A stretch of 64,000 nucleotides of DNA from Lachnospiraceae bacterium (GTDB taxonomy: Bacteria > Bacillota > Clostridia > Lachnospirales > Lachnospiraceae): NCBI GenBank assembly GCA_017396555.1, contig JAFQLS010000052.1, positions 17,782 to 81,781 of the forward strand, given 5' to 3'. Numbering within the stretch: position 1 is the first letter of the stretch; every line of letters starts with the position of its first letter. The notes under the pieces were generated by a model. It was not told the origin of the DNA. It made no database searches and saw nothing but the letters and a program-made list of their open reading frames with translations. The position numbers were made by a program, and so were the translations under genes. This document shows, piece by piece, positions 36,467 to 50,001 of the stretch.

Positions 36467-36495
36467 GTATAAATCCGTTATTTTTCCACATACTA
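36467..36495 (+). promoter_or_regulatory. Forespore-type (sigma-F/sigma-G) promoter of spoVT
   Basis: GTATA (36467-36471), 17-nt spacer, CATACTA (36489-36495). Both elements fit the forespore consensus (GHATR near -35, CATNHTA near -10); B. subtilis spoVT is sigma-G dependent. It lies about 40 nt before the spoVT start, in front of the left half of the interrupted gene. Confidence 0.7.
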
Positions 36496-36533: not shown

Positions 36534-36749
36534 ATGAAAGCAACAGGTATAGTCCGTCGTATAGACGAGCTTGGAAGAATAGTAATACCAAAGGAAATAA
36601 GAAGAACTTTACGTATTAGAGAAAGTGACCCGCTACTGACAATGTTGACAGAGTGTGGAAGGTCTGATGGAGAGGGAGTTTGTGGGAAGGTTAAAAGAAA
36701 TCTGTTCGTTAGTGGGGTGGTTGGACTCTGTGAGAGAGTGGGAAAGTGA
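36534..36749 (+). pseudogene. spoVT: spoVT 5' segment (31 codons) joined to the left-end tail of the inserted island
   Basis: The frame starts MKATGIVRRIDELGRIVIPK and continues to IRESDPL, the canonical SpoVT N-terminus of the AbrB-type swapped-hairpin domain. From the GTGACCC core (36625-36631) it runs into unrelated sequence (LTMLTECGRSDGEG...) and stops after 71 codons. SpoVT is normally about 178 residues, and even the about 50-residue DNA-binding domain is incomplete here, so this product cannot be functional. The missing part lies at 49559-50001. The 40 codons after the junction are in frame to serve as the C-terminus of the recombinase in the excised circle. AAAAGGAG precedes the ATG. 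Confidence 0.92.
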
Positions 36750-36784
36750 ATAAGGAAGCTTTAAGTTAGAAAATGTATGTGTTA

Positions 36785-36818
36785 AGCGCTAGTTGGAGAG
36801 ATCTGACTGGTGCTTTTT
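36785..36818 (+). terminator. Terminator inside the left end of the island
   Basis: AGCGCTAGT (36785-36793) pairs with ACTGGTGCT (36806-36814) using two G-U pairs, followed by TTTTTG. It would end transcripts from the spoVT promoter in the integrated state and recombinase transcripts in the circle. Confidence 0.65.
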
Positions 36819-36950
36819 GTCATATAAAAAAATTCTTGATGATAATATGAGTGGGAAAAAAATTTGATATAATAAAATTATTTAAGGATTATTTAATAAT
36901 TTAAGATTTATACTGTGACCTGTAAGAAAAAAAGGAATGGAGTTGTACAA

Positions 36951-39323
36951 ATGTTTTTAAATATTCTAAAAAAAGACTTAAAACGCAAGAAAACAATGAA
37001 TGTAATTCTGCTTATATTTATTTTGATGTCTGCTATGTTTATGTCAAGCAGTGCAAATAATATCATTGCGGTTACATCAGGTCTTGATTATTTCTTTAAA
37101 AAAGCAGATATGGCAGACTATTATGTTTTAGCTCTTGATGGTGATGGCAAGAAAATGCAGACCTCGCTTGATGGGTTAGATTCAGTAATTGATTATCGAA
37201 GAGAAGAGTCAATCTATATTTCAGGCAAAAATGTCGAAATAAACGGCAAAACTCTTAACGACCTGAACAGAGCAGCTATTGTTATGTCCATTGATAATGC
37301 TAAGCTAAACTACTTTACTCCGGATAACGAGCAAATAGCTACAGTGGAATCAGGCAAAGCATATGTTTCAGGAGTGTTTGCAAGTGAAAATAATCTTGAT
37401 ATCGGTGATAAGTTCACCCTTATAGTTGGCGACACCAAAAAAGAGTTTGAATATTTAGGCAGAGCTAAGGATGCTTTATTAGGTTCAGACTTTATGGGGA
37501 ATCCAAAATTCATTATTAATGACGAAGACTATGAATATCTGAATAGTGATAAAGAAGTAAAGAATCGTCAAGGAAGTACTTATTACATCAACACTACCGA
37601 CACTTCTAAAATCGAGGCAATGTTAGGTGAGCAGAGTGGAATATTGTTCAATGCAAACAATGACACCATTAAAACAACCTACATTATGTCGATGATTGTA
37701 GCAGCTTTGCTTCTTATTGTGAGTATATTTCTAATTGTAATATCTTTTGTAGTTCTTAAATACACAATAGGTTTTACTCTGGCAGAAGAATTTCGTGAAA
37801 TTGGTGTTATGAAAGCTATAGGTATGAAAAATAGCAGTATCAGAGCACTCTACCTTATAAAATATTTTGCAATTACAGTAGTAGGTTCTGCAATAGGTTT
37901 TGCTGTTAGTATGCCGTTTTCAGACATGATGCTCAAGGCTGTAAGTTCCTCGATGTATATTGACAGCGAAAACTCTGTTATGGTTTCCCTTCTTTGCAGT
38001 ATTGTAGTAATCTTTATAACATTATGTTTTTGTTGGAGCAGTACAAGAAGGATAAAAAAACTTTCTCCTATTGATGCCGTAAGGAACGGAACTACAGGCG
38101 AGCGATTCAAAAAGAAAAGTCTTATGCAACTTAGAAAAAGCAAACTTAATTCTACTGTATTTCTTTCAACTAACGATATTTTAAGTGCGCCTAAGAAATA
38201 TTCAATCGTTACATTTATATTTACTATACTTATGCTTCTTGTAATGATTCTTGCCAACACAGCAAATACATTAAACAGCGACAAGCTTTTGTTTTTACTT
38301 GGTTGTACAGAAAGCGATGTTTATCTGACTCTTACTGATGAAGTGATGCAAGCTACCGGTTCAAATGTAGATTCGCAGGCTATACTTAATGAAACTATTA
38401 AAGATGTTGAAAAAACACTTAGTGATAACGATATGACAGGCAAGGTACATGTTGAAACAATGTACAACACAACGGTTTTTACAAACGATACAAAAACAGG
38501 TGTCATGTTCCAGCATTGTCCTGACACAAAGGCAGATGACTACACATACAGCGAAGGAGTAGCTCCTGAAAATGCAAATGAAATTGCAGTATCATATCTT
38601 ATAGCAGAACGTCTTAACGTAGGTATTGGTGATACTGTTACCTTCATTATAGATGGTGAAGAATGCGAATGTATGATAACGGCACTTTTTCAGACTTTTA
38701 ATCAACTTGGTAACGTAGGTAGACTACACGAAGATTTTGATGTATCAAAGCTTGACTTATTAAATGCTTTCTCATTCCAGATTGATTTTGATGATGAAAT
38801 TAGCGAAGCTGAATGTGAAAAACGAATTGAAAAAATCAAGGATATATATGACACCAAACACGTTTACAACTGTGCTGATTTCGTAAAAGATTCAACCGGT
38901 GCAGCTGATATAATAAGTGCAGTTAAAAATATGGTACTTATCATAACACTCATTATTGTAGTTCTAATTGCAGTACTTATGGAGCGTTCATTTATCTCAG
39001 CAGAAAAAACAGAAATTGCTTTGATGAAAGCTATAGGATTCTCAAATAAATCTATTATTTGGCATCATACACTCAGATTTGCTATAGTAGCGGTTATCGC
39101 TTCAATACTTGCCGTAATTCTGTGTATGCCAATAACTAAGCTTGTTATAGACCCTGTAATGGGAGTAATGGGTGCTGTAAGTGGTGTAGGATACGAAATC
39201 ATACCTTTTGAAATCTTCGTTTTTTACCCTGCAATTCTTGTTGCTGTTACAATTATTGCTGCATTTTTTACATCAATTTATACAAATAAAATCAAGTCAA
39301 GTGATGCCTCTAACATAGAGTAA
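36951..39323 (+). CDS. FtsX-like ABC transporter permease
   Basis: A 790-residue permease with an N-terminal helix, an extracytoplasmic domain (about 50-245), a three-helix FtsX block (about 255-385, with EFREIGVMKAIGMKNSSI), a second helix and outer domain, and a final FtsX block (about 670-785, with EKTEIALMKAIGFSNKS). It belongs to the MacB/FtsX-type exporters, often for peptides or lipoproteins. ATG 36951 after GGAG is preferred to 36915. The ATPase follows 20 nt later and a two-component system after it, the usual layout of antimicrobial peptide resistance modules; the substrate is not determinable. Confidence 0.9.
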   Translation: MFLNILKKDLKRKKTMNVILLIFILMSAMFMSSSANNIIAVTSGLDYFFKKADMADYYVLALDGDGKKMQTSLDGLDSVIDYRREESIYISGKNVEINGKTLNDLNRAAIVMSIDNAKLNYFTPDNEQIATVESGKAYVSGVFASENNLDIGDKFTLIVGDTKKEFEYLGRAKDALLGSDFMGNPKFIINDEDYEYLNSDKEVKNRQGSTYYINTTDTSKIEAMLGEQSGILFNANNDTIKTTYIMSMIVAALLLIVSIFLIVISFVVLKYTIGFTLAEEFREIGVMKAIGMKNSSIRALYLIKYFAITVVGSAIGFAVSMPFSDMMLKAVSSSMYIDSENSVMVSLLCSIVVIFITLCFCWSSTRRIKKLSPIDAVRNGTTGERFKKKSLMQLRKSKLNSTVFLSTNDILSAPKKYSIVTFIFTILMLLVMILANTANTLNSDKLLFLLGCTESDVYLTLTDEVMQATGSNVDSQAILNETIKDVEKTLSDNDMTGKVHVETMYNTTVFTNDTKTGVMFQHCPDTKADDYTYSEGVAPENANEIAVSYLIAERLNVGIGDTVTFIIDGEECECMITALFQTFNQLGNVGRLHEDFDVSKLDLLNAFSFQIDFDDEISEAECEKRIEKIKDIYDTKHVYNCADFVKDSTGAADIISAVKNMVLIITLIIVVLIAVLMERSFISAEKTEIALMKAIGFSNKSIIWHHTLRFAIVAVIASILAVILCMPITKLVIDPVMGVMGAVSGVGYEIIPFEIFVFYPAILVAVTIIAAFFTSIYTNKIKSSDASNIE

Positions 39324-39343
39324 TCAAGAATAGGAGAATTATT

Positions 39344-40102
39344 ATGAATACAATACTTAACGTAAAAGACCTTTGCAAAACATATATCACAAACAAAAGA
39401 CAAAACAACGTTTTAAAGAATGTAAATTTCCAGGTAGAAGAAGGCGAAATGGTTGCTATCATGGGACCATCCGGCTCTGGTAAATCTACACTTCTCTATA
39501 CAGTTTCAAGTATGGATAAAATGACCGCAGGGGAAGTAAATTTCTGCGGAAAGAATATTGAAAAGTTAAATGACAATGAACTTGCTAAGCTTCGTCTTGA
39601 GGATATGGGATTTATTTTCCAACAAATGTATATGCTAAAAAATCTTTCGGTTCTTGATAATATCATTCTTCCAGCAGTTAAGTCTGCAAAGACTAAGGAA
39701 AGCAGAGCTGAAATTGCTGAACGCGGCTTAATGCTTATGAAAAAGCTTGGGATTGAAGAAATTGCTGACAATGATATCAATGAAGTATCAGGTGGACAGC
39801 TTCAGCGTGCTTGTATTTGCCGTAGTATGATAAATAATCCAAAGGTTATTTTTGCAGATGAGCCTACAGGTGCATTAAATCGTACATCTTCTGATGAAGT
39901 TATGAATGAACTTACAAAACTTAACAACGAAGGAACAACAATAATGCTTGTTACACATGACGCTAAGGTTGCCGCAAAATGTAAAAGAGTTCTATTTATA
40001 GTTGATGGAAATATTAAAGGTGAGTATAATTTGGATGTAACATCTAATGCTCGAGATAGAGAGCGTGCACTCAATAATTGGCTTATGGAAATGGGATTTT
40101 AG
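39344..40102 (+). CDS. ABC transporter ATP-binding protein (MacB/LolD type)
   Basis: A 252-residue ATPase with Walker A GPSGSGKST, Q-loop (FQQMYMLKNLSVLDNIILPA), signature VSGGQLQRACICRSM, Walker B VIFADEPTGALN and H-loop VTHD. It energises the adjacent FtsX-like permease, 20 nt upstream. AGGAG precedes the ATG. Confidence 0.95.
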   Translation: MNTILNVKDLCKTYITNKRQNNVLKNVNFQVEEGEMVAIMGPSGSGKSTLLYTVSSMDKMTAGEVNFCGKNIEKLNDNELAKLRLEDMGFIFQQMYMLKNLSVLDNIILPAVKSAKTKESRAEIAERGLMLMKKLGIEEIADNDINEVSGGQLQRACICRSMINNPKVIFADEPTGALNRTSSDEVMNELTKLNNEGTTIMLVTHDAKVAAKCKRVLFIVDGNIKGEYNLDVTSNARDRERALNNWLMEMGF

Positions 40103-40132
40103 TATAAAAATCCCTCGGAAATGGTGACTAAT

Positions 40133-40795
40133 ATGGATATACTTATTGTTGAAGATAATAAAGAACTTTTAACACTTTTAACTGACTTTTTGCGTGCGGA
40201 AGGGTATATAGTCAGCACAGCTGAAAATGGAGAAAAAGCCTTGCACCTATACGAAAAGTATGGGGCAAGGCTTGTGTTACTTGATATAAATTTGCCGGGA
40301 ATGGACGGCTTTGCAGTATGTGAGAAAATCCGTAGTGAAGGTAACACTCCTATTATTATGCTTACAGCTCGTGTTAGTAAAGAGGATAAATTAAATGGTC
40401 TTATTTTGGGAGCTGATGACTATATGGAAAAGCCTTATGATATTGATATTCTACTTGCAAAAATTAAGGGCATTTTCAAACGCAGATTTGCTGAAGACAA
40501 GATAACAGAGGGAAATTTGACTCTGAATCTTGTAACACAATCAGTTACAAAAGCAGGTAAAGCCGTTGAAATGACAGCAAAGGAGTTTGAACTCCTCAAA
40601 ATGCTTATTGAAAACAAGGGGCAAGTCCTTACGAAAGATAGGTTATTTAATCGAATATGGGGAATTGATAGTGAATCTGAACCCCAGACTCTTACAGTTC
40701 ATATCAAATGGTTAAGAGAAAAAATAGAGTCAGATCCTAAGAAGCCTATACACATACTTACAGTGTGGGGTAAGGGTTACCGTTGGGAGGAGTAG
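40133..40795 (+). CDS. OmpR-family response regulator
   Basis: A 220-residue regulator. The receiver domain has the phospho-acceptor in LVLLDINLPGMDG and the lysine in MEKPYD; the C-terminal winged helix shows MTAKEFELLKMLIENKGQVL...HIKWLREKI. Start 40133 follows GGTGA; an ATG at 40121 is also possible. It forms a pair with the histidine kinase at 40797 and presumably controls the ABC exporter just upstream. Confidence 0.94.
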   Translation: MDILIVEDNKELLTLLTDFLRAEGYIVSTAENGEKALHLYEKYGARLVLLDINLPGMDGFAVCEKIRSEGNTPIIMLTARVSKEDKLNGLILGADDYMEKPYDIDILLAKIKGIFKRRFAEDKITEGNLTLNLVTQSVTKAGKAVEMTAKEFELLKMLIENKGQVLTKDRLFNRIWGIDSESEPQTLTVHIKWLREKIESDPKKPIHILTVWGKGYRWEE

Positions 40796-40796
40796 G

Positions 40797-42014
40797 ATGA
40801 AAAGTTTTAATAAAATTATAGCTCTGGCGGTTGTTTTTATTATTCTTATGTTTGTAATTGTTAATGTTATTCCAGAGTTTTCAAAAGAATATTCAAGGGT
40901 TCTTAAGGTTGAAATTAATCGCACTGTTCGTGAAATCGATGAGACGGGCAAGATTCCTGATATAGATAAATATAAGACGATTGTAGGCATATCTAAGCAA
41001 TTAGATAGTGATGATTTTTGGATATCAGAAAACGAATATGTAATTCGAGAGATTGATGGAGAGCTTTATCGAATTGATTATATCGAAGATACGGACAGCT
41101 CAAAAGAGATGCTTTATATAAATATTGCTTTGGGAATAGTTTCCCTGTTTATGATTGTTGGCCTTTTTTATATTCGTCAGAATATTTTAAAGCCTTTCTC
41201 AGAAATCACAAATCTGCCTTATGAATTGTCAAAAGGTAATTTAACAATTCCACTTAAGGAAAGTAAAAATCGATTTTTTGGGAAATTTTTGTGGGGTCTT
41301 GATATGCTAAGAGAGAAACTGGAAGAAACGCGTCAGTCTGAGCTTGAACTGAAAAAAGAGAAAAAGACTATGATTCTTTCGCTTTCACATGATATTAAAA
41401 CACCACTTTCAGCTATAAAGCTATATGCAAAAGCTCTCTCAAATGGAATATATAAAGAGCCGCAAAAACAGTATGAGGTGTATGAAAGTATAAATGCAAA
41501 AGCAGATGAAATTGAAAAACTTGTATCTGAAATTATGAGGAATGAAACAGAAGAAATTATTGCTTTTGATGTTAAAGAAGGTGAATTTTATTTATCAGAG
41601 GTTATAGATAGTATAAAGGCATATTATGGTGATAAACTTGAAAATACTTGTTTTAATATAGACAACTATAATGATTGTATGCTTAATGGTGATGCAGACA
41701 GATTGACGGAAGTATTACAGAATATTATAGAAAATGCTATTAAATACGGCGATGGTAGAAACATAAGTCTTAGTTTTTTCGACGAAGAAGATTGTCGTAT
41801 TATTACTGTGAGAAATAGTGGCTGTACTTTACAACAAAATGAGCTTACTTACATCTTTGACAGCTTTTACAGAGGTTCGAATGTAGGTTCAAAAGCAGGA
41901 AATGGACTTGGACTTTATATCTGTCGTCAGTTAACCAAAGCTATGGGTGGAGATGTATTTGCAGAGATAGAGAACGATGATATGTGTGTGTCGGTGGTAT
42001 GCAGAAAGAAGTAA
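40797..42014 (+). CDS. Sensor histidine kinase
   Basis: A 405-residue kinase. Two membrane helices (about 7-25 and 103-123) flank a short outer loop of about 75 residues. A HAMP-like linker, the H-box LSHDIKTPLSAIKLYAKAL, an N-box (ENAIKYGDG) and G-box (GNGLGLYICRQL) follow. Its ATG lies 1 nt after the response regulator stop. A short sensing loop next to an ABC exporter is typical of systems that sense through the transporter. Confidence 0.94.
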   Translation: MKSFNKIIALAVVFIILMFVIVNVIPEFSKEYSRVLKVEINRTVREIDETGKIPDIDKYKTIVGISKQLDSDDFWISENEYVIREIDGELYRIDYIEDTDSSKEMLYINIALGIVSLFMIVGLFYIRQNILKPFSEITNLPYELSKGNLTIPLKESKNRFFGKFLWGLDMLREKLEETRQSELELKKEKKTMILSLSHDIKTPLSAIKLYAKALSNGIYKEPQKQYEVYESINAKADEIEKLVSEIMRNETEEIIAFDVKEGEFYLSEVIDSIKAYYGDKLENTCFNIDNYNDCMLNGDADRLTEVLQNIIENAIKYGDGRNISLSFFDEEDCRIITVRNSGCTLQQNELTYIFDSFYRGSNVGSKAGNGLGLYICRQLTKAMGGDVFAEIENDDMCVSVVCRKK

Positions 42015-42050
42015 GATTTTTATTGATAAAAAAATACGAGGAGGTAAAAT

Positions 42051-43337
42051 GTGGATTACATATTTTCATACTTAGAATTTTTAGTGCAATATATTGCGAT
42101 GTTTTTAATACAGCGTTATGTCTTTTTGGAAAGAGGTTTAGATAAGACAAAGCAAAAGATTTATTACGTTGTTACAATAACAATAGGAATAATTATTTGT
42201 GCATTCTTATCTGTAGAGATGGCATCTGTATTTGCAATGCTCGTGTGTGGTTTGAATATTATGCTTGCTAGAGAAAAGCATAAACTGTCGGGTTTTTTCT
42301 TGGTAATTCCGATTGTTGGAATGATGGATGGATTAGTAATTCCGATTATGGTATTGCCAGATAGTTTGATTTCATTTGATAAAAAGGGTTTGATTCTTTA
42401 CCAAGTAGGTGTATACGTAATTGTTATTGTTTTACTGCTACTTTTCTACAAACACGGAAAAGAATGGAGAAAGCGTTTTGAGTTAGAAATGAGACACCGT
42501 TATGTACAGAAGTGGGAGCAGGTGCTTTTGTGGATAGTAGGTTGTATGATGATGTTGTTTTCTGTGTTTATGACAAGAGATGTTGAATCTATTTCGCATG
42601 TATTTGGAGTGGGGGTGGCAAAGGATATTGCCTCTTCTATGATAGCGGAAGGTCTTATGTCTTTTGTACTGACAATAACAACAATTATCCTTATTATGCA
42701 GGGAAATAAGCGTTCTTATTATAATGGTATTGCTGAGAGTCGACGAGAAAGTGGTGAGCGACTTACCATACAGATGGTAAAGGCATTGGCAAATACTATT
42801 GATGCTAAGGATTCGTATACCAATGGACATTCGACAAGAGTGGCAGAGTATTCTGTTATGATTGCAAAGCGTATGGGATATATAGGAGAGAAACTGGAAC
42901 ATTTATATTATGCAGCTGTTTTGCATGATATTGGTAAAATTGGTGTACCAAGAGAAATAATTAATAAACCTTCACGATTGACGGATGAAGAATATGCCAT
43001 GATAAAATCTCATCCAGTTACAGGAAGTAATATTTTGAAAGAGGTGACAGAGATACCAGACATTTCTATTGGTGCAAAATATCATCATGAACGTTATGAT
43101 GGAAAAGGATATCCGGATGGATTAAGTGGCACAGATATTCCGGAGATAGCGAGAATAATTGGTGTGGCAGATGCTTATGATGCAATGACCTCCAAAAGAA
43201 GTTATCGTGATACATTAGAGCAGGAAGTCGTAAGAAAAGAAATTATTAATGGAAAAGGAACACAGTTTGATCCTGAGATTGCAGAGGTTATGTTGGAATT
43301 AATAGATGAGGATATGGAGTATCGGATGCATGAATAA
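42051..43337 (+). CDS. Membrane HD-GYP domain protein, probable c-di-GMP phosphodiesterase
   Basis: A 428-residue protein. About 200 residues of membrane helices are followed by an HD-GYP domain: NGHSTRVAEYS, LHDIGKIGVP, the HHERYDGKGYPDGL block and ADAYDAMTSKRSYR. HD-GYP proteins hydrolyse c-di-GMP to pGpG or GMP. The start is GTG at 42051 after GAGGAGG. It follows the histidine kinase by 36 nt. The chromosome outside the island carries a c-di-GMP riboswitch at 16171, so island gain or loss could alter a signal that the host reads. Confidence 0.9.
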   Translation: MDYIFSYLEFLVQYIAMFLIQRYVFLERGLDKTKQKIYYVVTITIGIIICAFLSVEMASVFAMLVCGLNIMLAREKHKLSGFFLVIPIVGMMDGLVIPIMVLPDSLISFDKKGLILYQVGVYVIVIVLLLLFYKHGKEWRKRFELEMRHRYVQKWEQVLLWIVGCMMMLFSVFMTRDVESISHVFGVGVAKDIASSMIAEGLMSFVLTITTIILIMQGNKRSYYNGIAESRRESGERLTIQMVKALANTIDAKDSYTNGHSTRVAEYSVMIAKRMGYIGEKLEHLYYAAVLHDIGKIGVPREIINKPSRLTDEEYAMIKSHPVTGSNILKEVTEIPDISIGAKYHHERYDGKGYPDGLSGTDIPEIARIIGVADAYDAMTSKRSYRDTLEQEVVRKEIINGKGTQFDPEIAEVMLELIDEDMEYRMHE

Positions 43338-43414
43338 AGGGTAAATTCGAATATATGAACTTTGAATGACTAAATGGTTAGAAAAATACTATTATTTATG
43401 CTCAAAGTTGTGTG

Positions 43415-43461
43415 ATTTATCTACCCATAGAAGTGCTAAAGAAGTGCGTGGGTAGATAAAT
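43415..43461 (+). terminator. Perfect 13-bp inverted repeat after the HD-GYP gene
   Basis: ATTTATCTACCCA (43415-43427) and TGGGTAGATAAAT (43449-43461) are exact inverted repeats with a 21-nt loop. There is no clear T run, so it is a terminator or a stable RNA end. Another TGGGTAGAA follows near 43511. The rest of the gap 43338-43580 is AT-rich without a recognisable gene. Confidence 0.45.
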
Positions 43462-43580
43462 ATGGTGAAAAGAATGTATTTTTCTTCTCATTAAGTATAA
43501 ATAATGCAATATGGGTAGAATTTTTTATTTGTCTTGTTAAAGAAATAAACTTGAATTTGTAGTTGTGAAAGGAGATATGT

Positions 43581-43895
43581 ATGTTAGCAATAGACCAGTC
43601 TGGTAATAAATTATTAGAGTTTATAAAAATAACTGAAGAGGATGCGGTTTTGCAATTTTCGCCGATAACGGTTTGCCTACTTGTTGTAAAGATAGGCAAA
43701 GATTATCTTATGGGATTCAATCATTGGCGAAAAGTCTGGGAAATATTTGGGGTATCATTAGTCGAAGAATATTTGGAGCAAATTGAGAAATTGCGAATAG
43801 ATAGAGAAGAAATCGAAAAAATTGCTTTGTTAGGAGAGATTTCTTCTAATGAAGAAATAAGAGAACTTGACAGAAAACTAACTGAGTTTTATTAA
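43581..43895 (+). pseudogene. Nudix hydrolase remnant with internal deletion
   Basis: A 104-codon frame. ITVCLLVVKIGKDYLMGFNHWRKVWEIFG matches the entry of Nudix hydrolases up to the W-E-x-F/P-G that should be followed by GGxxExGE. Instead the sequence jumps to VSLVEEYLEQIEKLR, so the catalytic Nudix box is missing. A good ribosome binding site (AAAGGAG) is kept. Probably a decayed gene; the shortened product could still be made. Confidence 0.6.
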
Positions 43896-44078
43896 GGCTA
43901 TTTTGGGATGTTGTTGAGTTGGGAGGCACACAAAACTTTCAGTTAACAGTTGTGATTAACTGAGGTACGGATTTTGGATTTTTACACAGAACATGTTTGC
44001 TTATAAATAAGAATGAGCTTGCAATCAAGCTTTGATATATTTATTATAAAAATAGCGATGTGAAAGGAGAGAACTTAT

Positions 44079-44144
44079 ATGTGCAACAGATATGTTATTG
44101 CTCAGTAGTCTGAGCTTAAAATAAAATGAATAGTTAAGCTCGGA
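44079..44144 (+). promoter_or_regulatory. Nine-codon leader frame with alternative hairpins before the HTH-GNAT gene
   Basis: AAAGGAG is followed by ATG and the frame MCNRYVIAQ-stop (44079-44108). Overlapping this end are two mutually exclusive stems: CTCAG/CTGAG (44101-44105 with 44110-44114) and GAGCTTAA/TTAAGCTC (44112-44119 with 44134-44141). The layout recalls translational attenuators of resistance genes. The wider gap 43896-44175 has no other gene. Confidence 0.4.
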
Positions 44145-44175
44145 TGAATCCCCACAAAATAATAGGAGGATTAAA

Positions 44176-44901
44176 ATGAGCTATATAAGTGCAGAAAATG
44201 TTCTGCCAAAAGAACTTATAGAAATGATTCAGCAGTATGTAAGTGGTAAAAGTATATATATTCCATGTAAAGAGAAAAAAGACTGGGGCAGTCTGACTAA
44301 ATCAAAGGAGTATTACAATAAGCGAAATTATGAAATATGTGAAAAACATAAATCTGGAGCTTCGATAAAAGTACTTGCTACTATATATTCCTTGTCAGAA
44401 AAGAGCATACAAAGAATCATTAGAACGACTAACAGGAGGGTATTAGCTATGAAGGAATATAGATATATTACACTTCGTGAAGAGCCAATGATGAAAGAGA
44501 TAGCTGCCCTATGGTTTAACAGTAAATGGGGTGTTCCGCAAGAGGCATATCTTGAATGTATGAATGCATATTTGAATAAAGAAACAGAATATGGTTGGTA
44601 TCTATGTCTTGATGGTGAGAAAATTGTTGCCGGAATGGGAGTGATAGAAAATGATTTCCACGACAGAAAAGAACTTTCACCAAATGTTTGTGCTGTCTAC
44701 ACAGAAGAAGAGTATCGCGGTAAAGGAATAGCTGGTAATCTGTTAAATATGGTGGTTGCAGATATGAAGGACAAGGGAATAAGTCCGATATATTTGGTAA
44801 CAGACCATACAGGCTTCTATGAAAGATATGGTTGGGAATTCTTATGTATGGTTCAGGGAGATGATGAACCAGAGATGACAAGAATGTACATACATAGATA
44901 A
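44176..44901 (+). CDS. HTH domain fused to GNAT acetyltransferase
   Basis: A 241-residue protein of two joined parts. Residues 1-90 (MSYISAENVLPKELIEMIQQ...SLSEKSIQRIIR) form the small helix-turn-helix protein common in Clostridia, usually a stand-alone protein of about 90 residues. From residue 92 (MKEYRYITLREEPM) begins a complete GNAT enzyme (AVYTEEEYRGKGIAGNLLN; HTGFYERYGWEFL). The junction at 44434-44451 contains AGGAGGG followed at good spacing by ATG, i.e. the acetyltransferase keeps its own ribosome binding site inside the fused frame. Either a stop codon was lost or both full-length and short forms are made. Confidence 0.8.
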   Translation: MSYISAENVLPKELIEMIQQYVSGKSIYIPCKEKKDWGSLTKSKEYYNKRNYEICEKHKSGASIKVLATIYSLSEKSIQRIIRTTNRRVLAMKEYRYITLREEPMMKEIAALWFNSKWGVPQEAYLECMNAYLNKETEYGWYLCLDGEKIVAGMGVIENDFHDRKELSPNVCAVYTEEEYRGKGIAGNLLNMVVADMKDKGISPIYLVTDHTGFYERYGWEFLCMVQGDDEPEMTRMYIHR

Positions 44902-45010
44902 AGCTATGATGCTACAATATATTTACAATTATTAAAATACTATTTCAGGGAACTTTTGGATACAATGTTATGCATATGTTCCCTGAAAATATTTCTACAG
45001 GAAAAAAATC

Positions 45011-45856
45011 ATGTTAAAAATAATAGAAACTGAAAACCTAGAGAAAATATATAATTATCAAATAAAGTTTAACGCTCCTTTTTTCATTTCAAAAGATTTC
45101 GCTCTATGGAGAAAATCTTTTGAGGAGGATGTTGACGGTGAAGGAAGAGTTTTATTTAAAGAGCTTTTTGTAAAAGCTGCATATGAAGAGAATGAAATTG
45201 TTGGATTTATTCAGTACGGAAAAACAGCATTTGGATTCGACAATCAAGGAGAGATTTCTTCAGATATATCCTACCCGATTATTCGTAATCTGTATTTTGA
45301 TGAAAACAGAGAAGATATAGGGGAATTGTTGCTGAAAGATGCTTTAAATGAATTTGCAGCATCCAATAAAATATATGCATTTTTTCACTATTTTGGAATG
45401 AGTTGCTTTGCTCGACATGGAAAGCTGTTTGAAAAGTATGGTCACATTGAAGATGTATTGAAAAAGAACGGATTTGAAACAGAACATGAAAATGTATACT
45501 ATTCATCTACCCTAAAGGGGAATGTTGAATATGAAATCGAAATAAAGCCACACAATATGACGAAAGGTAATCAACAGTATATAGATTTTATACTTTCAGG
45601 TAATCATGTTGGAGGTTGTGAGGTGCACTTTCTTGACCGTAAAAGTACATATCTTCGCTGGATATATGTTAATGATAATATCACAGGTAAGGGGATTGGT
45701 ACAAAATGTATGGAGGCATTAAAGCACTGGCTTTATGATAAAGGTGTTACAAGGTTTGATACTGACACTGCTATTTCTAACGCGATAGCGCAACACTATT
45801 ATGATAAAAACGGATTCATTCGTGAGGGTATAACAAGGAGTTATTATCGGGAATAG
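45011..45856 (+). CDS. Two-lobed GNAT-family acetyltransferase
   Basis: A 281-residue protein. The C-terminal half has a normal GNAT core (RWIYVNDNITGKGIGTKCMEAL; AIAQHYYDKNGFIREG). The N-terminal half (about 1-165) has the look of a degenerate GNAT fold (ELFVKAAYEENEIVGFIQYG). It is encoded on the island with the HTH-GNAT fusion. Substrate unknown; some island-borne GNAT enzymes give drug resistance, but nothing here shows that. Confidence 0.8.
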   Translation: MLKIIETENLEKIYNYQIKFNAPFFISKDFALWRKSFEEDVDGEGRVLFKELFVKAAYEENEIVGFIQYGKTAFGFDNQGEISSDISYPIIRNLYFDENREDIGELLLKDALNEFAASNKIYAFFHYFGMSCFARHGKLFEKYGHIEDVLKKNGFETEHENVYYSSTLKGNVEYEIEIKPHNMTKGNQQYIDFILSGNHVGGCEVHFLDRKSTYLRWIYVNDNITGKGIGTKCMEALKHWLYDKGVTRFDTDTAISNAIAQHYYDKNGFIREGITRSYYRE

Positions 45857-46200
45857 TCACTAACAAGACCGAATTTTGGAGATGTAGTCCACAAATACGT
45901 ATCTTGCCATGTAGGGGTGACCATTTCAGCAACCATTTTTATCCTCATTTATTCGATGGAATATTCATCACATCCCAAGTGCATTTCTAATAATAAATTT
46001 CATCTGAAACATCAAAATAGACCCCCCAACTGTCAAATTCATAGTAACACTATGACAAACTCATAGTACCGCTTTATGTTCATTATCAGTAAAAAAGTTC
46101 TATCATAATATGTGCCAAGGTAAATATCGATAATACTTCATTTGCCGGCATAGAAGTGGTAGTTATTGGCAATACTGAAATGAGAAGGAGGAGGGCATAT
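45857..46200. other. Gene-free stretch of the island
   Basis: No frame with a ribosome binding site is visible. There are short CATAGTA repeats around 46038-46071 and an out-of-place C-rich stretch (GACCCCCC, near 46020). It may hold the remains of an older gene on the minus strand, but I cannot identify it. Confidence 0.4.
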
Positions 46201-46464
46201 ATGAATCTGACTGTTAATAATGAAAGCAAATATGCAATTGTTTGGATGAATAATGTGGAAAAGGATGATCCTGAGATGATGAAAAGCCTGCAGCCTTTGA
46301 TTGAGGAATGTAAGGAAAAGAAATACAGACTTGTTATCTTTGAATCCGGAGAGCAGGATTTGGTGGAGAAGACTTCGGATTTGCTTATTCATAATCGAGG
46401 ATTGGAAAGAGTGGAGAATGAAGATGTAACTGTATTACCTAAGAGTGTGGCAAAGTCAAGATAA
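46201..46464 (+). CDS. Small conserved-looking protein of the island
   Basis: An 87-residue acidic protein (MNLTVNNESKYAIVWMNNVE...). The ATG at 46201 follows AAGGAGGAGGG; the longer frame from 46156 is less likely. I recall similar small frames on Clostridial mobile elements but cannot name a function. It lies just upstream of the operator-like repeats of the fic gene. Confidence 0.6.
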   Translation: MNLTVNNESKYAIVWMNNVEKDDPEMMKSLQPLIEECKEKKYRLVIFESGEQDLVEKTSDLLIHNRGLERVENEDVTVLPKSVAKSR

Positions 46465-46482
46465 TAATGATAGAGGGAAACA

Positions 46483-46579
46483 TTTCTACCCCATTTTTTA
46501 TCTTTCTACCCCAATAACAATAAAATGGGGTAGAAAAATATTGATATTCTATGTCATTTTTGCTAAAATGGGGTAGAAA
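46483..46579. promoter_or_regulatory. Four operator-like repeats before the Fic gene
   Basis: TTTCTACCCCA occurs at 46483-46493 and 46503-46513, and its exact inverse TGGGGTAGAAA at 46526-46536 and 46569-46579. The last copy ends directly at the fic ribosome binding site. The symmetry and position indicate a binding site, most simply for the wHTH-like C-terminus of the Fic protein. Confidence 0.7.
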
Positions 46580-46593
46580 AGGATGTGGTGACT

Positions 46594-47649
46594 ATGAAAG
46601 AAATAAATTATAGAGCAATAGAAAAAATGCCAATTACTATTGAGGTTATGAATATGATTTCGTTACTCCATGAGTATAAAGGTCGACAGGAATTATATAT
46701 AGAAACTCAGCCGGAAATATTAGATAAATTAATGGAGGTTGCAAGAATACAAAGTACAGAAGCTTCCAACAAGATTGAAGGTATATATACATCAGATACA
46801 AGATTGAAAGAACTTGTGCAGAAAAAGAGTGAACCAAGAAATAGAAATGAAAAAGAGATTGCTGGTTATAGAGAAGTTTTAGGAATGATTCACGATAGTT
46901 ATTCTTATATACAATTAAAGCCTAATGATATATTAACATTGCATAAATATCTTTATAGTTATTCGGAATCAGGTAATGGTGGACATTATAAAATGGTCGA
47001 TAATTGTATTGAGGAGGAAGATGAATATGGAAACAAAAGTGTGAGATTTCAGCCAGTTTCTGCAATTCTAACTAAGGAATATATGGAATCGTTGTGTGAA
47101 CAATTTGAAGAGGTGATGAATCACACAGATATTGATCCATTGCTTGTTATTCCTTGTGTAATTCTTGATTTTTTGTGTATTCATCCTTTTGGTGATGGTA
47201 ATGGCAGAATGTCAAGACTTTTAACTTTGTTACTTTTATACAAGGCAGGATATTTGGTTGGTAAATATATCAGTATTGAAATGGTGATAGAAAAATCAAA
47301 AGAAACATATTATGAAGCGTTGCAGGATAGTTCAATTAATTGGCATGAGAATACAAATGATTATATGCCATTTATTAGATACACATTGGGAACAATCATT
47401 AATGCATATAAAGATTTTGAAGAAAGATTTGTGTTGCTTGAAAAGAAGAAAATGACATCTGTAGAAAGAGTCTACAGTGTTATTGAACGATCATTGGTTA
47501 AGCTTGGAAAATCGGACATTATGATACTTTGCCCAGAACTTAGTCAGAAAACCATAGAAAGGGCCTTAAAGAAATTGACAGATGAAGGAAAGATTGTAAA
47601 GATTGGAGCAAGTAAAAATACAGCATATGTAGATGCGAAAAGATTATAA
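46594..47649 (+). CDS. Fic-domain AMPylase-type protein with C-terminal winged-helix-like part
   Basis: A 351-residue Fic protein. The catalytic motif is HPFGDGNGRMSRLL. An N-terminal inhibitory-type sequence, SNKIEG, sits at about residue 60, as in class II Fic proteins that block their own ATP site. Residues about 290-350 resemble a winged helix (MILCPELSQKTIERALKKLT...GKIVKIGASKNTAYVDA). Such proteins transfer AMP or related groups to target proteins and some act as toxin-like regulators. ATG 46594 is preferred over GTG 46585, which is too close to AGGA. A terminator follows. Confidence 0.9.
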   Translation: MKEINYRAIEKMPITIEVMNMISLLHEYKGRQELYIETQPEILDKLMEVARIQSTEASNKIEGIYTSDTRLKELVQKKSEPRNRNEKEIAGYREVLGMIHDSYSYIQLKPNDILTLHKYLYSYSESGNGGHYKMVDNCIEEEDEYGNKSVRFQPVSAILTKEYMESLCEQFEEVMNHTDIDPLLVIPCVILDFLCIHPFGDGNGRMSRLLTLLLLYKAGYLVGKYISIEMVIEKSKETYYEALQDSSINWHENTNDYMPFIRYTLGTIINAYKDFEERFVLLEKKKMTSVERVYSVIERSLVKLGKSDIMILCPELSQKTIERALKKLTDEGKIVKIGASKNTAYVDAKRL

Positions 47650-47667
47650 TATGATGATACTAGGGTC

Positions 47668-47697
47668 AAAAAGGCAAGCATTTCCACTTGCCTTTTT
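47668..47697 (+). terminator. Strong terminator between fic and the recombinase
   Basis: AAAAAGGCAAG (47668-47678) pairs perfectly with CTTGCCTTTTT (47687-47697). A possible recombinase promoter (TTGCCT, 18-nt spacer, TACAAT at 47712-47717) starts inside it. Confidence 0.8.
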
Positions 47698-47751
47698 CTA
47701 TCCCTACAACTTACAATGTTGTTAGAACTACAAGAAAGGAGAAATATCGAC

Positions 47752-50001
47752 ATGGAAAAACATACCACTGACATTATAGTTAACAAGGAAATAGCCGGCT
47801 ATTGCCGTATCTCTGTTGACGAAGAACTTGACAGAGACAATACATCCATCGAGAATCAGAAGAAGATTATCGAAGAATTTGTTAAAGCAAAATTTCCTAA
47901 GTGCAAGCTTGCCATATATGAAGACAGAGACCGCTCGGGTTACACCTTTGAGCAGCGTGAGCAGTACCAGCAGCTTAGAAAGCGGCTTATGAATGGCGAG
48001 ATAAGTATACTTATAGTCAAAGACTTTAGCCGATTTTCCCGTCGTAACAGTAAGGGACTTGTAGAACTTGAAGACTTAAGAGATGCAGGTGTTAGAATTA
48101 TTTCCATTGGTGATGCAATTGATTATCCAACTTATGATGACTGGACTGCCATACAGTTTCGCTTTCTTATAAATGAAATGCCTGTTACGGATACCAGCAA
48201 AAAGGTTCGTAGTGTTATTAGTAGACGACAGTCTGATGGTGAGTGGATTTGCTCTGTTCCCTATGGATATATCATCTCAAATATGAAGAAACAGGAAATA
48301 TCCGTAGTAGAAGATGAAGCTGATGTTATCCGCAAAGTCTTTGAATTATATAATGAGGGATGGGGGTACAAAAAGATTGCCAATTATCTTACGGATAAAA
48401 AGATTCCTACACCTCGTATGAAAGAAATAGAACGAGCTACACAGCGTGGTGATGAGTGCAAATTAAAGGCTAAGCCTGAATGGAGTATTATCACTATTCA
48501 AGGGATTTTAGCAAATGACTTTTATATAGGAACTCTCAGACAACACAAATACACCAGAAAGAAAATTCATGGAATAGACATTAAGGTAGACGAGTCGGAG
48601 CATTTTGTATTTGAGAATCATCATGAACCAATAGTTGAATATAAGACATTTGCCTATACTAAGGAGCAGCTTAATAAAAGAACCACAACACATTATCGTG
48701 GCGTGAAGAAATATGAAAATGTGTATTCGGGATTTATGTTTTGCGGAGATTGCGGTGCACCAATGTTTTCAATGAGTAGGAGTGACATTGCACCTGCATA
48801 TACTTGCGGTACTTATCATAGAAGGGGATTGAAGGGCTGTACTTCCCATCATATAAGAGTTGATTTTCTTGATAAGATATTAAAGGAATATGTGAAGCTT
48901 GTAAGAGATAATTCATCAGATATGATAAAGGAGCTTGAAACTGCTATTAAGAAAGAGTCGACAGAAGTAAAGGAAAATGAAAACACGTTTGCCATTCTTG
49001 AAAATCAATTAGCAGATGCTAAGAATGAGTTAAAGGCTGTTAAGAAGCGCAAAATCAAAGAGATAGCCAGAGCTGATGAAGACACAGTTGACATTATTGA
49101 AGAAACTTATGTTGAAATTGAGGAAGAGCTTGTGAACAGAATCAAGGGACTTCAAAATCAGATTAATCTAAGTGTTGATAAAAGAAATGACATTATCAGG
49201 GTTAACAGACTAGCTAAAACTGCCATAGATATTTTTAATGATATATTAAATAAGAAAAGCCTTGATAAAAAAGATTTGGAACTGATTATTGATAAGATTA
49301 TTGTTTTTGAAGATAGGATTCATGTGAAGCTTAAAGCTGATATTGATAATCTTCTAAAGGTTGGAGTAGTTACCACATTTTACTATGAAGAGGTGGAAGG
49401 TAAGGAAGAACTTCTAAAGGTTGCGGAAAACTCAGAGTATAATGTAGTAAATTTTAAGTATGACAGTAAAGTTATAGAAAAGTATTTAACCACTAAGTTT
49501 GACCTTAAAACAAGAAATAAGGCTAAACGACTCTTTACTGTCAATGTTATCAGTAGTGGTGACCCACTGGAAATCTTCACTGATAGAGAGGGTGAAATAA
49601 TACTTAAGAAATATTCCCCGCTTGGAGAACTTACACAGTTTGCATCTCAATTTGCAGATAGCCTTGCGGTGACATCCGGATGTGGTATAATAATAACAGA
49701 CAGAGACCATGTAATTGCAGGTGCCGGTGGAAAAAAAGAATGTATTAATAAGAGAATTACACCGGAGCTTGAAGAAGTTATCGGTGAGAGAAAAAGCATA
49801 AAGGCAGATGACAGACCAATTTCTGTAGTTGAAGATTCTAAGGAGAAATTTAACCAGGTAATAGTTCCTATCATTTGTGAAGGTGATGTAATAGGTTCTG
49901 TTATACTTGTGGCGAAGGATATAAGAGACAAGCTTGGTGAAGAAGAGTATAAAATGGCTCAGCTATCAGCAGGCTTCTTAGGAAAACAAATGGAGAATTA
50001 A
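47752..50001 (+). CDS. Large serine recombinase whose 3' end is fused to spoVT
   Basis: A 749-residue chimera. Residues about 14-160 are the resolvase catalytic domain with the active serine in YCRIS (Ser21) and KDFSRFSRR. The recombinase domain follows (RQSDGEWICSVPYGYI...GYKKIANYL...TPRM), then a zinc ribbon (CGDCGAPMFS...YTCG...GCTSH) and a coiled coil (about 385-500). Up to about residue 603 this is a typical integrase of transposon or skin-element type. From D604 (DPLEIFTDREGEIILKKYSP) to the end it is the SpoVT GAF-like part. ATG 47752 follows AAAGGAG. In the circular form the same frame would instead end with a 40-residue island-encoded tail (about 643 residues in total). Confidence 0.92.
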   Translation: MEKHTTDIIVNKEIAGYCRISVDEELDRDNTSIENQKKIIEEFVKAKFPKCKLAIYEDRDRSGYTFEQREQYQQLRKRLMNGEISILIVKDFSRFSRRNSKGLVELEDLRDAGVRIISIGDAIDYPTYDDWTAIQFRFLINEMPVTDTSKKVRSVISRRQSDGEWICSVPYGYIISNMKKQEISVVEDEADVIRKVFELYNEGWGYKKIANYLTDKKIPTPRMKEIERATQRGDECKLKAKPEWSIITIQGILANDFYIGTLRQHKYTRKKIHGIDIKVDESEHFVFENHHEPIVEYKTFAYTKEQLNKRTTTHYRGVKKYENVYSGFMFCGDCGAPMFSMSRSDIAPAYTCGTYHRRGLKGCTSHHIRVDFLDKILKEYVKLVRDNSSDMIKELETAIKKESTEVKENENTFAILENQLADAKNELKAVKKRKIKEIARADEDTVDIIEETYVEIEEELVNRIKGLQNQINLSVDKRNDIIRVNRLAKTAIDIFNDILNKKSLDKKDLELIIDKIIVFEDRIHVKLKADIDNLLKVGVVTTFYYEEVEGKEELLKVAENSEYNVVNFKYDSKVIEKYLTTKFDLKTRNKAKRLFTVNVISSGDPLEIFTDREGEIILKKYSPLGELTQFASQFADSLAVTSGCGIIITDRDHVIAGAGGKKECINKRITPELEEVIGERKSIKADDRPISVVEDSKEKFNQVIVPIICEGDVIGSVILVAKDIRDKLGEEEYKMAQLSAGFLGKQMEN
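49559..50001 (+). pseudogene. spoVT: spoVT 3' segment (146 codons), right half of the interrupted gene
   Basis: From the core GTGACCC the frame reads DPLEIFTDREGEIILKKYSP, then the SpoVT signal-sensing domain (SGCGIIITDRDHVIAGAGG; VIVPIICEGDVIGSVILVAK; AQLSAGFLGKQMEN). Joined at the core to the left segment (36534-36624) it gives a 177-residue SpoVT with the expected IRESDPLEIF junction; the B. subtilis protein has about 178. The gene is followed after 1 nt by mazG, the conserved neighbour region of spoVT. Confidence 0.93.

Follow-up and report, generated by a model that had tools for sequence, protein, structure and literature searches.

Intervening elements of sporulation genes have been described in sigK, spsM, spoVFB, spoVR, gerE, kamA and yabG (PMC6957869, PMC10747680), and in the excerpts of the literature on which we draw throughout, almost all of them lie in mother-cell-specific genes, where loss costs the element nothing (PMC6957869). 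Here we analyse a stretch of 64,000 nucleotides (the window) from a Lachnospiraceae bacterium (assembly GCA_017396555.1, contig JAFQLS010000052.1), in which the sporulation regulator gene spoVT is split by an island carrying a large serine recombinase gene. As in the known intervening elements, a sporulation gene is split, its halves join in frame, and the island has its own site-specific recombinase and attachment (att) sites at both ends. The target, however, is not of the mother-cell type: spoVT depends on sigmaF and sigmaG in C. difficile (PMC3789822), and a forespore-type promoter precedes it in the window. A search of open-licence papers turned up no description of an element in spoVT, in line with an earlier model annotation made from the letters alone (the sequence-only reading), which knew of none. 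What would be new is thus the forespore target together with a mutual exchange of reading-frame ends, whereas the excision scheme itself resembles that of skin and SPbeta.

The likeness to skin and SPbeta proposed by the sequence-only reading extends to the split sporulation gene and its in-frame repair, but not to the target, which belongs to the forespore (germline) and not to the mother cell. The skin element in sigK (B. subtilis, C. difficile) also has a serine recombinase and restores its target in frame on excision (PMC6957869, PMC10747680), but sigK is a mother-cell gene and loss there is terminal, whereas spoVT acts in the forespore; the fusion of the recombinase frame with the target frame is a feature of the spoVT element that is absent from the excerpted descriptions of skin. 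SPbeta provides the nearest solved relative of the recombinase (YokA), and its excision rebuilds spsM (PMC4191935); it differs in being an active phage in a mother-cell gene, while no phage genes were seen among the scanned proteins of the window island. The gin element in gerE (B. cereus ATCC10987) is likewise a non-phage island with serine recombination in a sporulation regulator, but gerE is a mother-cell regulator and gin has three recombinase genes (PMC5595907). In C. botulinum, yin splits another sporulation gene, yabG, and occurs as integrated and circular subpopulations in one culture; it differs in its sigmaK-dependent (mother-cell) target and prophage-like nature, and is reported to be unique to one strain (PMC10747680).

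The features on which the comparison rests are listed here by position in the window; the promoter was scored against what we take to be the sigmaF/sigmaG consensus.

36467..36495, forward strand: sigmaF/sigmaG-like promoter of spoVT, GTATA-17-CATACTA, 38 nt before the ATG (9/9 positions of the presumed consensus)
36534..36626, forward strand: 5' part of spoVT, codons 1-31 (TIGR02851 positions 1-35; joined frame)
36625..36631, no strand: attL core GTGACCC, crossover GA at 36627-36628 (repeat, identity break, symmetry)
36629..36749, forward strand: element tail, the predicted C-terminal segment of the recombinase in the circle, now behind SpoVT 1-31 (joins, open frame, synonymous against non-synonymous differences)
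36633..36651, no strand: left-end half (arm) of the circle-site palindrome, CTACTGACAATGTTGACAG (window sequence; symmetry over 24 elements)
46201..46464, forward strand: protein of 87 amino acids (aa), candidate recombination directionality factor (conserved association with the recombinase)
47716..49557, forward strand: large serine recombinase up to the junction (Resolvase, Recombinase and Zn_ribbon_recom domains)
49538..49556, no strand: right-end half (arm) of the circle-site palindrome, CTGTCAATGTTATCAGTAG, within the recombinase frame (window sequence; symmetry over 24 elements)
49558..50001, forward strand: 3' part of spoVT, in frame with the recombinase (SpoVT_C E=9.4e-40; TIGR02851 positions 27-180)
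49559..49565, no strand: attR core GTGACCC, crossover GA at 49561-49562 (repeat, identity break, symmetry)

Rechecking of coordinates, phase and joins bore out the arrangement that the sequence-only reading had described, with spoVT codons 1-31 and the remainder separated by 12,934 bp and each half meeting a GTGACCC core in the same phase. The open reading frame (ORF) at 36534-36749 (71 aa) opens with SpoVT residues 1-31 and runs on for 40 further codons, and the ORF at 47716-50001 (761 aa) encodes a large serine recombinase with the full domain set (Resolvase, Recombinase, zinc ribbon; nearest solved structure SPbeta YokA, PDB 9dxh, E=2.1e-17) and a complete SpoVT_C domain at its C-terminus (Pfam, residues 638-760). 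The two GTGACCC copies are spaced by exactly 12,934 bp and are the only ones in 64 kb; because 1.57 copies are expected there by chance, the repeat by itself proves nothing, and we rejected it as stand-alone evidence. Joining the halves at GTGACCC reproduced one open frame encoding a SpoVT of 177 aa. In the chromosome the recombinase frame continues into SpoVT, and in a circle it would end with the 40-codon tail, so that leaving the chromosome exactly at these cores would restore spoVT and at the same time give the recombinase another C-terminus, a proposal that the in-frame joins support. The downstream neighbours fared less well: MazG-, HU- and RqcP-like genes do follow the split spoVT, but their supposed conservation is not general, because, when 41 intact loci in the same family were crudely searched for motifs, an HU-like one followed in 12, an RqcP-like one in 12 and a MazG-like one in 6.

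To follow the junction beyond the window, species-representative genomes were scanned with the recombinase part alone, and the best 80 of 167 relatives were analysed (L and G numbers are our own handles). At an identity of at least 51%, 43 relatives were found among these 80 (L072-L114). In 41 of the 43 the recombinase frame continues into SpoVT at the same G[DE]PLEI codons, with two of these fusions truncated by the end of a contig. The two exceptions are L104, which has a different end, and L114, whose contig breaks off within the recombinase. Among the more distant relatives, L115 (33%) is also fused, and the other 36 (31-34%) are not. The fused group includes the named strains Eubacterium sp. 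MSJ-21, Anaerotruncus massiliensis AT3 and Anaerotignum lactatifermentans DSM 14214. An assembly or binning artefact might have been suspected from the window genome, a draft of 2.34 Mb in 57 contigs, with 85% completeness and no other member of its genus in the genome set; the recurrence of the junction in 41/43 relatives, in independent assemblies and in three named strains already contradicts this, and we regard such an artefact as extremely improbable.

The 46 loci of the carrier survey come from 45 genomes, and after exclusion of G330, G342 and G343, in which the recombinase is not joined to SpoVT, 42 remained. A separate 5' part of spoVT is also present in 28 of these 42, on the same contig in nine, and was not found in the other 14 genomes searched; only G305 has a full-length SpoVT besides the split form. 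When related genomes were compared for an intact gene, as the sequence-only reading had proposed, 206 of 299 genomes drawn from the window's family had some SpoVT match and 145 had one above threshold, so intact genes are the norm. Re-examination of 25 chosen lower-scoring genomes added the fused cases G287, G060 and G064, of which G287 and G060 share contigs with L074 and L075.

The point of exchange can be read from pairs of related loci. Between L096 and L098, identity is 98.9% across 1,500 nt of recombinase DNA and 73% across the first 100 nt of SpoVT, and the first mismatch lies immediately 3' of GGCGA; G323 and G332 provide the mirror case, in which the spoVT start differs throughout and identity begins at GACCC. 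Near-identical recombinases beside diverged spoVT halves place the 2-bp strand exchange at the GA of the GAC (Asp) codon, which leaves both frames in phase, and their presence in diverged hosts shows movement of such elements between species. The reverse was also found, L083 and L100 having nearly the same SpoVT (1.9% different) and recombinases that differ by 17%, and the two patterns together indicate that elements come and go at the same site. In the reconstructed circle sites of 24 elements (for 15 of which the halves come from different contigs of one assembly), a mean of 19.3 of 24 pairs are symmetric around the GA, compared with 5.9 at other centres, 9.7 at the empty host site, 8.3 at attL and 7.7 at attR. 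A palindrome that appears on rejoining would be expected of a serine recombinase attP. The junction is more than chance, given its recurrence in 41/43 relatives, the sharp identity break and the palindrome centred on GA. As judged from sequence, the island is almost certainly a site-specific element whose attP lies in the recombinase frame and whose attB lies in spoVT. Like integrative and mobilizable elements, it has an integrase with specific att sites.

We consider it quite probable that, as a whole, the locus is an integrated mobile island that has spoVT as attB and undergoes a reversible swap of ends. The recombinase would use the Gly/Ser-Asp-Pro codons of spoVT (residues 31-33) as attB, and integration swaps the 3' ends, the recombinase gaining SpoVT from residue 32 and SpoVT 1-31 gaining the recombinase tail. 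The reverse reaction would restore both frames; in nature the reaction is likely to be bidirectional, with the 87-aa protein as a helper directionality factor.

The window element is one member of a large, widespread and horizontally moving family. Distances of recombinase and SpoVT are correlated (Mantel r 0.59 over 39 loci, a value not reached in 2,000 shuffles) with clear exceptions, and a long vertical residence, considered as proof of selection for repair, was rejected in view of close recombinases beside distant SpoVT halves. Circular copies were sought in plasmid and phage collections, where no record reached at least 60% identity; of the two best records from the phage collections, both linear, the one at 51.1% is fused to SpoVT and the one at 59.5% ends before the junction.

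Some loci deviate from the common arrangement. L104 of genome G330 (L226:8401) holds a recombinase relative with its own 39-aa tail and an intact spoVT, which might be an off-target insertion or a relic; a pattern search of 28 kb of G330 found no element tail. G047 carries an intact spoVT (L070:2031-2564) and, about 18 kb further on, a second copy without the first 9 codons (L071:107-622), with several very large ORFs between them (1195, 1172 and 867 aa); judged from the ORF list, it is a candidate for another island at spoVT with a long duplicated target. G287 (L065:11969-14645) has two copies, 2.4 kb apart and about 89% identical, of a spoVT start followed by a tail and the start of a ParA-like gene, and the left copy seems to be a relic of another element from the spoVT-recombinase family. 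A second spoVT start in G315 (L197, G315:C52), with a different tail, and a second hit in G314 (L213, G314:C25), which was not recovered, may mark further elements.

The tail exchanged for SpoVT is part of the recombinase frame. In 26 of 27 spoVT-start pieces (from 25 genomes, G287 and G315 contributing two each) the frame behind the junction stays open for at least 20 codons, compared with 0/27 and 10/27 for the other two frames, although many of these tails are related and thus not independent. In the exception, G340, only two codons precede a stop, and a further stop lies in its SpoVT 3' part. The search covered 31 stretches, of which five were blank with the first pattern; allowing GTG starts recovered four of them (all but the second G314 hit), again with open tails. 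Many tails follow a common pattern (LT, a variable gap, F-x-x-A-M-[LIV] and a late R), to which those of G303, G314 and G334 fit poorly. Beyond the att arm, seven pooled pairs showed 26 synonymous differences over 99.8 sites and 29 non-synonymous differences over 437.2 sites (proportions pS 0.26 and pN 0.066), most of the non-synonymous ones stemming from two pairs, one of which is the two G287 copies. The tail is therefore under constraint at the protein level, and integration removes this C-terminal segment from the recombinase and puts a SpoVT domain in its place. In mycobacteriophage integration-dependent immunity, attP also lies in a coding region and integration changes the C-terminus of an element protein; here the altered protein would be the recombinase itself, whose C-terminus depends on the state of integration, and the partner is a host sporulation regulator. 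The open frames and the constrained tail would also suit functional products, with the recombinase-SpoVT fusion and the SpoVT 1-31/tail peptide serving as such and spoVT never rebuilt. We find this very improbable, however, because one and the same recombinase occurs fused to widely differing SpoVT halves, which speaks against co-evolution of the two parts, and because intact and split junctions coexist in two assemblies.

The first of these two assemblies, G305, has an intact spoVT on a 149-kb contig and a recombinase-SpoVT junction on a 3.4-kb contig, which ends 96 nt from the crossover GA and whose last 99 nt are identical to the 149-kb contig, suggesting a branch of the assembly graph. In G064, an intact junction, cut off after 86 SpoVT codons, accompanies an attR, and the two agree over 174 nt except for a single mismatch. 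For L153, the end of the underlying IMG/VR contig coincides exactly with the crossover GA. Together, G305, G064 and L153 suggest that integrated and empty states occur side by side. An apparent assembly branch between attL and attP occurs in G303, where the contig carrying the spoVT start and tail (L202, end of G303:C48) breaks off at exactly 77 nt from the crossover GA; a search of the G303 bin found no other contig with the same tail.

A second component that travels with the recombinase is the gene of the 87-aa protein. Homologues lie upstream of the recombinase at 34 of the 43 close loci (6 of the 9 misses have less than 300 nt of upstream sequence), in 11/11 compared islands and at 27 of the 37 more distant loci (L117 and L119-L149 among these); the 87-aa protein had no convincing match in Pfam, NCBIfam, PHROGs or PDB sequences. 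Since it regularly accompanies recombinases, even those that are not joined to SpoVT, the protein is a candidate directionality factor and points to an unnamed candidate family of such factors.

Whether excision is tied to sporulation bears on what the island means for its hosts. A spoVT mutant of C. difficile forms no heat-resistant spores (PMC3789822), and exact excision would be required before spore formation, since developing spores need spoVT. SpoVT acts in the forespore, so excision would take place in the germline. The published rationale for islands in sporulation genes, loss only from a doomed mother cell (PMC6957869), thus becomes testable in the spoVT family, the alternatives being that the germline loses and regains the element in each spore cycle, or that carriers cannot sporulate until cured. 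SpoIVA is above the cut-off in 42 of 45 genomes checked, and 41 of the 45 have a strong SigG-type match (E 1e-103 or better); because these are kept, carriers look like spore-forming lineages with spoVT off until the element leaves. They may also simply be asporogenous. A promoter score of 8 or 9 against the presumed consensus was reached before 17 of 27 split spoVT starts, compared with 11.2% of shuffles, and before 16 of 31 intact spoVT genes, a similar share. A timing of excision to sporulation, and the cell type, are inference only: excision in or before the forespore would allow carriers to sporulate, and afterwards the element would have to stay in the germline, either as a circle or by reintegrating.

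Several observations weigh against a reversible island that leaves for sporulation. The window genome contains only the integrated state, its two spoVT pieces being the sole SpoVT family matches; excision, although very likely, has not been observed; and G305 and G064 may be strain mixtures. None of the SigG-type matches lies above the curated cut-off, and the forespore argument rests on other species. Since recombinase and SpoVT have different histories, the insertions look recent, and intact spoVT halves therefore do not prove selection for repair. No sporulation-type promoter signal was detected before the small gene (2/18 score 8, compared with a background of 9%).

Both the last point and the lack of observed excision would suit a plain mobile island, which excises only for transfer and uses spoVT as a conserved target dispensable in growth, carriers being asporogenous meanwhile and nothing being timed to development. 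It is consistent with the fast turnover and horizontal spread of the elements, with a cluster of relaxase-type genes represented in five islands and with the type I restriction genes of 4/11 islands, whereas carriers keep other sporulation genes and preserved frames permit exact repair, points that do not exclude it; we give it somewhat less than an even chance. A skin-like timing, in which excision is set off by sporulation and restores spoVT in the cell that requires it, seems to us a real but not a leading prospect, again a little short of even. It draws on analogy with known intervening elements (PMC6957869, PMC5595907, PMC10747680) and on the forespore-type promoter retained before the split spoVT, but, besides the recent look of the insertions, the logic of loss from a dying mother cell fails for a forespore gene. 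It is unlikely, though conceivable, that the element times its own departure from the germline by the spoVT forespore promoter. Firing of this promoter would yield the SpoVT 1-31/tail peptide, which carries the missing C-terminal segment of the recombinase, and the peptide and the 87-aa partner would turn the SpoVT-fused recombinase to excision; spoVT would be rebuilt in the forespore, peptide production would then stop, and the circle, with the recombinase tail regained, would travel in the spore and reintegrate after germination.

The remaining genes of the window island are cargo, identified by domain scan; the first four encode an ABC exporter and its accompanying two-component system, and the others an HD-domain protein, a pair of acetyltransferases and one Fic-like protein:

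36915-39323, forward strand: FtsX-type permease
39344-40102, forward strand: ABC ATPase
40121-40795, forward strand: response regulator
40797-42014, forward strand: histidine kinase
42051..43337, forward strand: HD-domain protein
44176-44901 and 45011-45856, forward strand: two GNAT-type acetyltransferases
46585..47649, forward strand: Fic-like protein (NCBIfam E=1.7e-14, below the model cut-off)

The Pfam and NCBIfam scans of the window-island proteins found no relaxase (a transfer origin was not searched for) and no phage structural genes. Phage structural genes were also absent from the best 25 of 134 families for 96 cargo proteins, chosen from 10 of 11 compared islands and scanned with Pfam and PADLOC (PHROGs on small proteins only). 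The 11 islands range from 12.7 to 33.6 kb (that of G287 spans a contig gap) and share little beyond the recombinase and the small gene; clusters recurring across them include a type I restriction DNA methylase (4/11), a relaxase-type cluster (5/11) and Fic-like proteins (4/11). The family would also tie mobile cargo, in part defence genes, to spore formation in gut Clostridia. In size, terminal recombinase and relaxase-type cluster, the islands resemble the integrative and mobilizable elements of Bacillota, from which the window's own island differs in the absence of a relaxase among its scanned proteins; one member of the relaxase-type cluster, read singly, matches MobA/VirD2.

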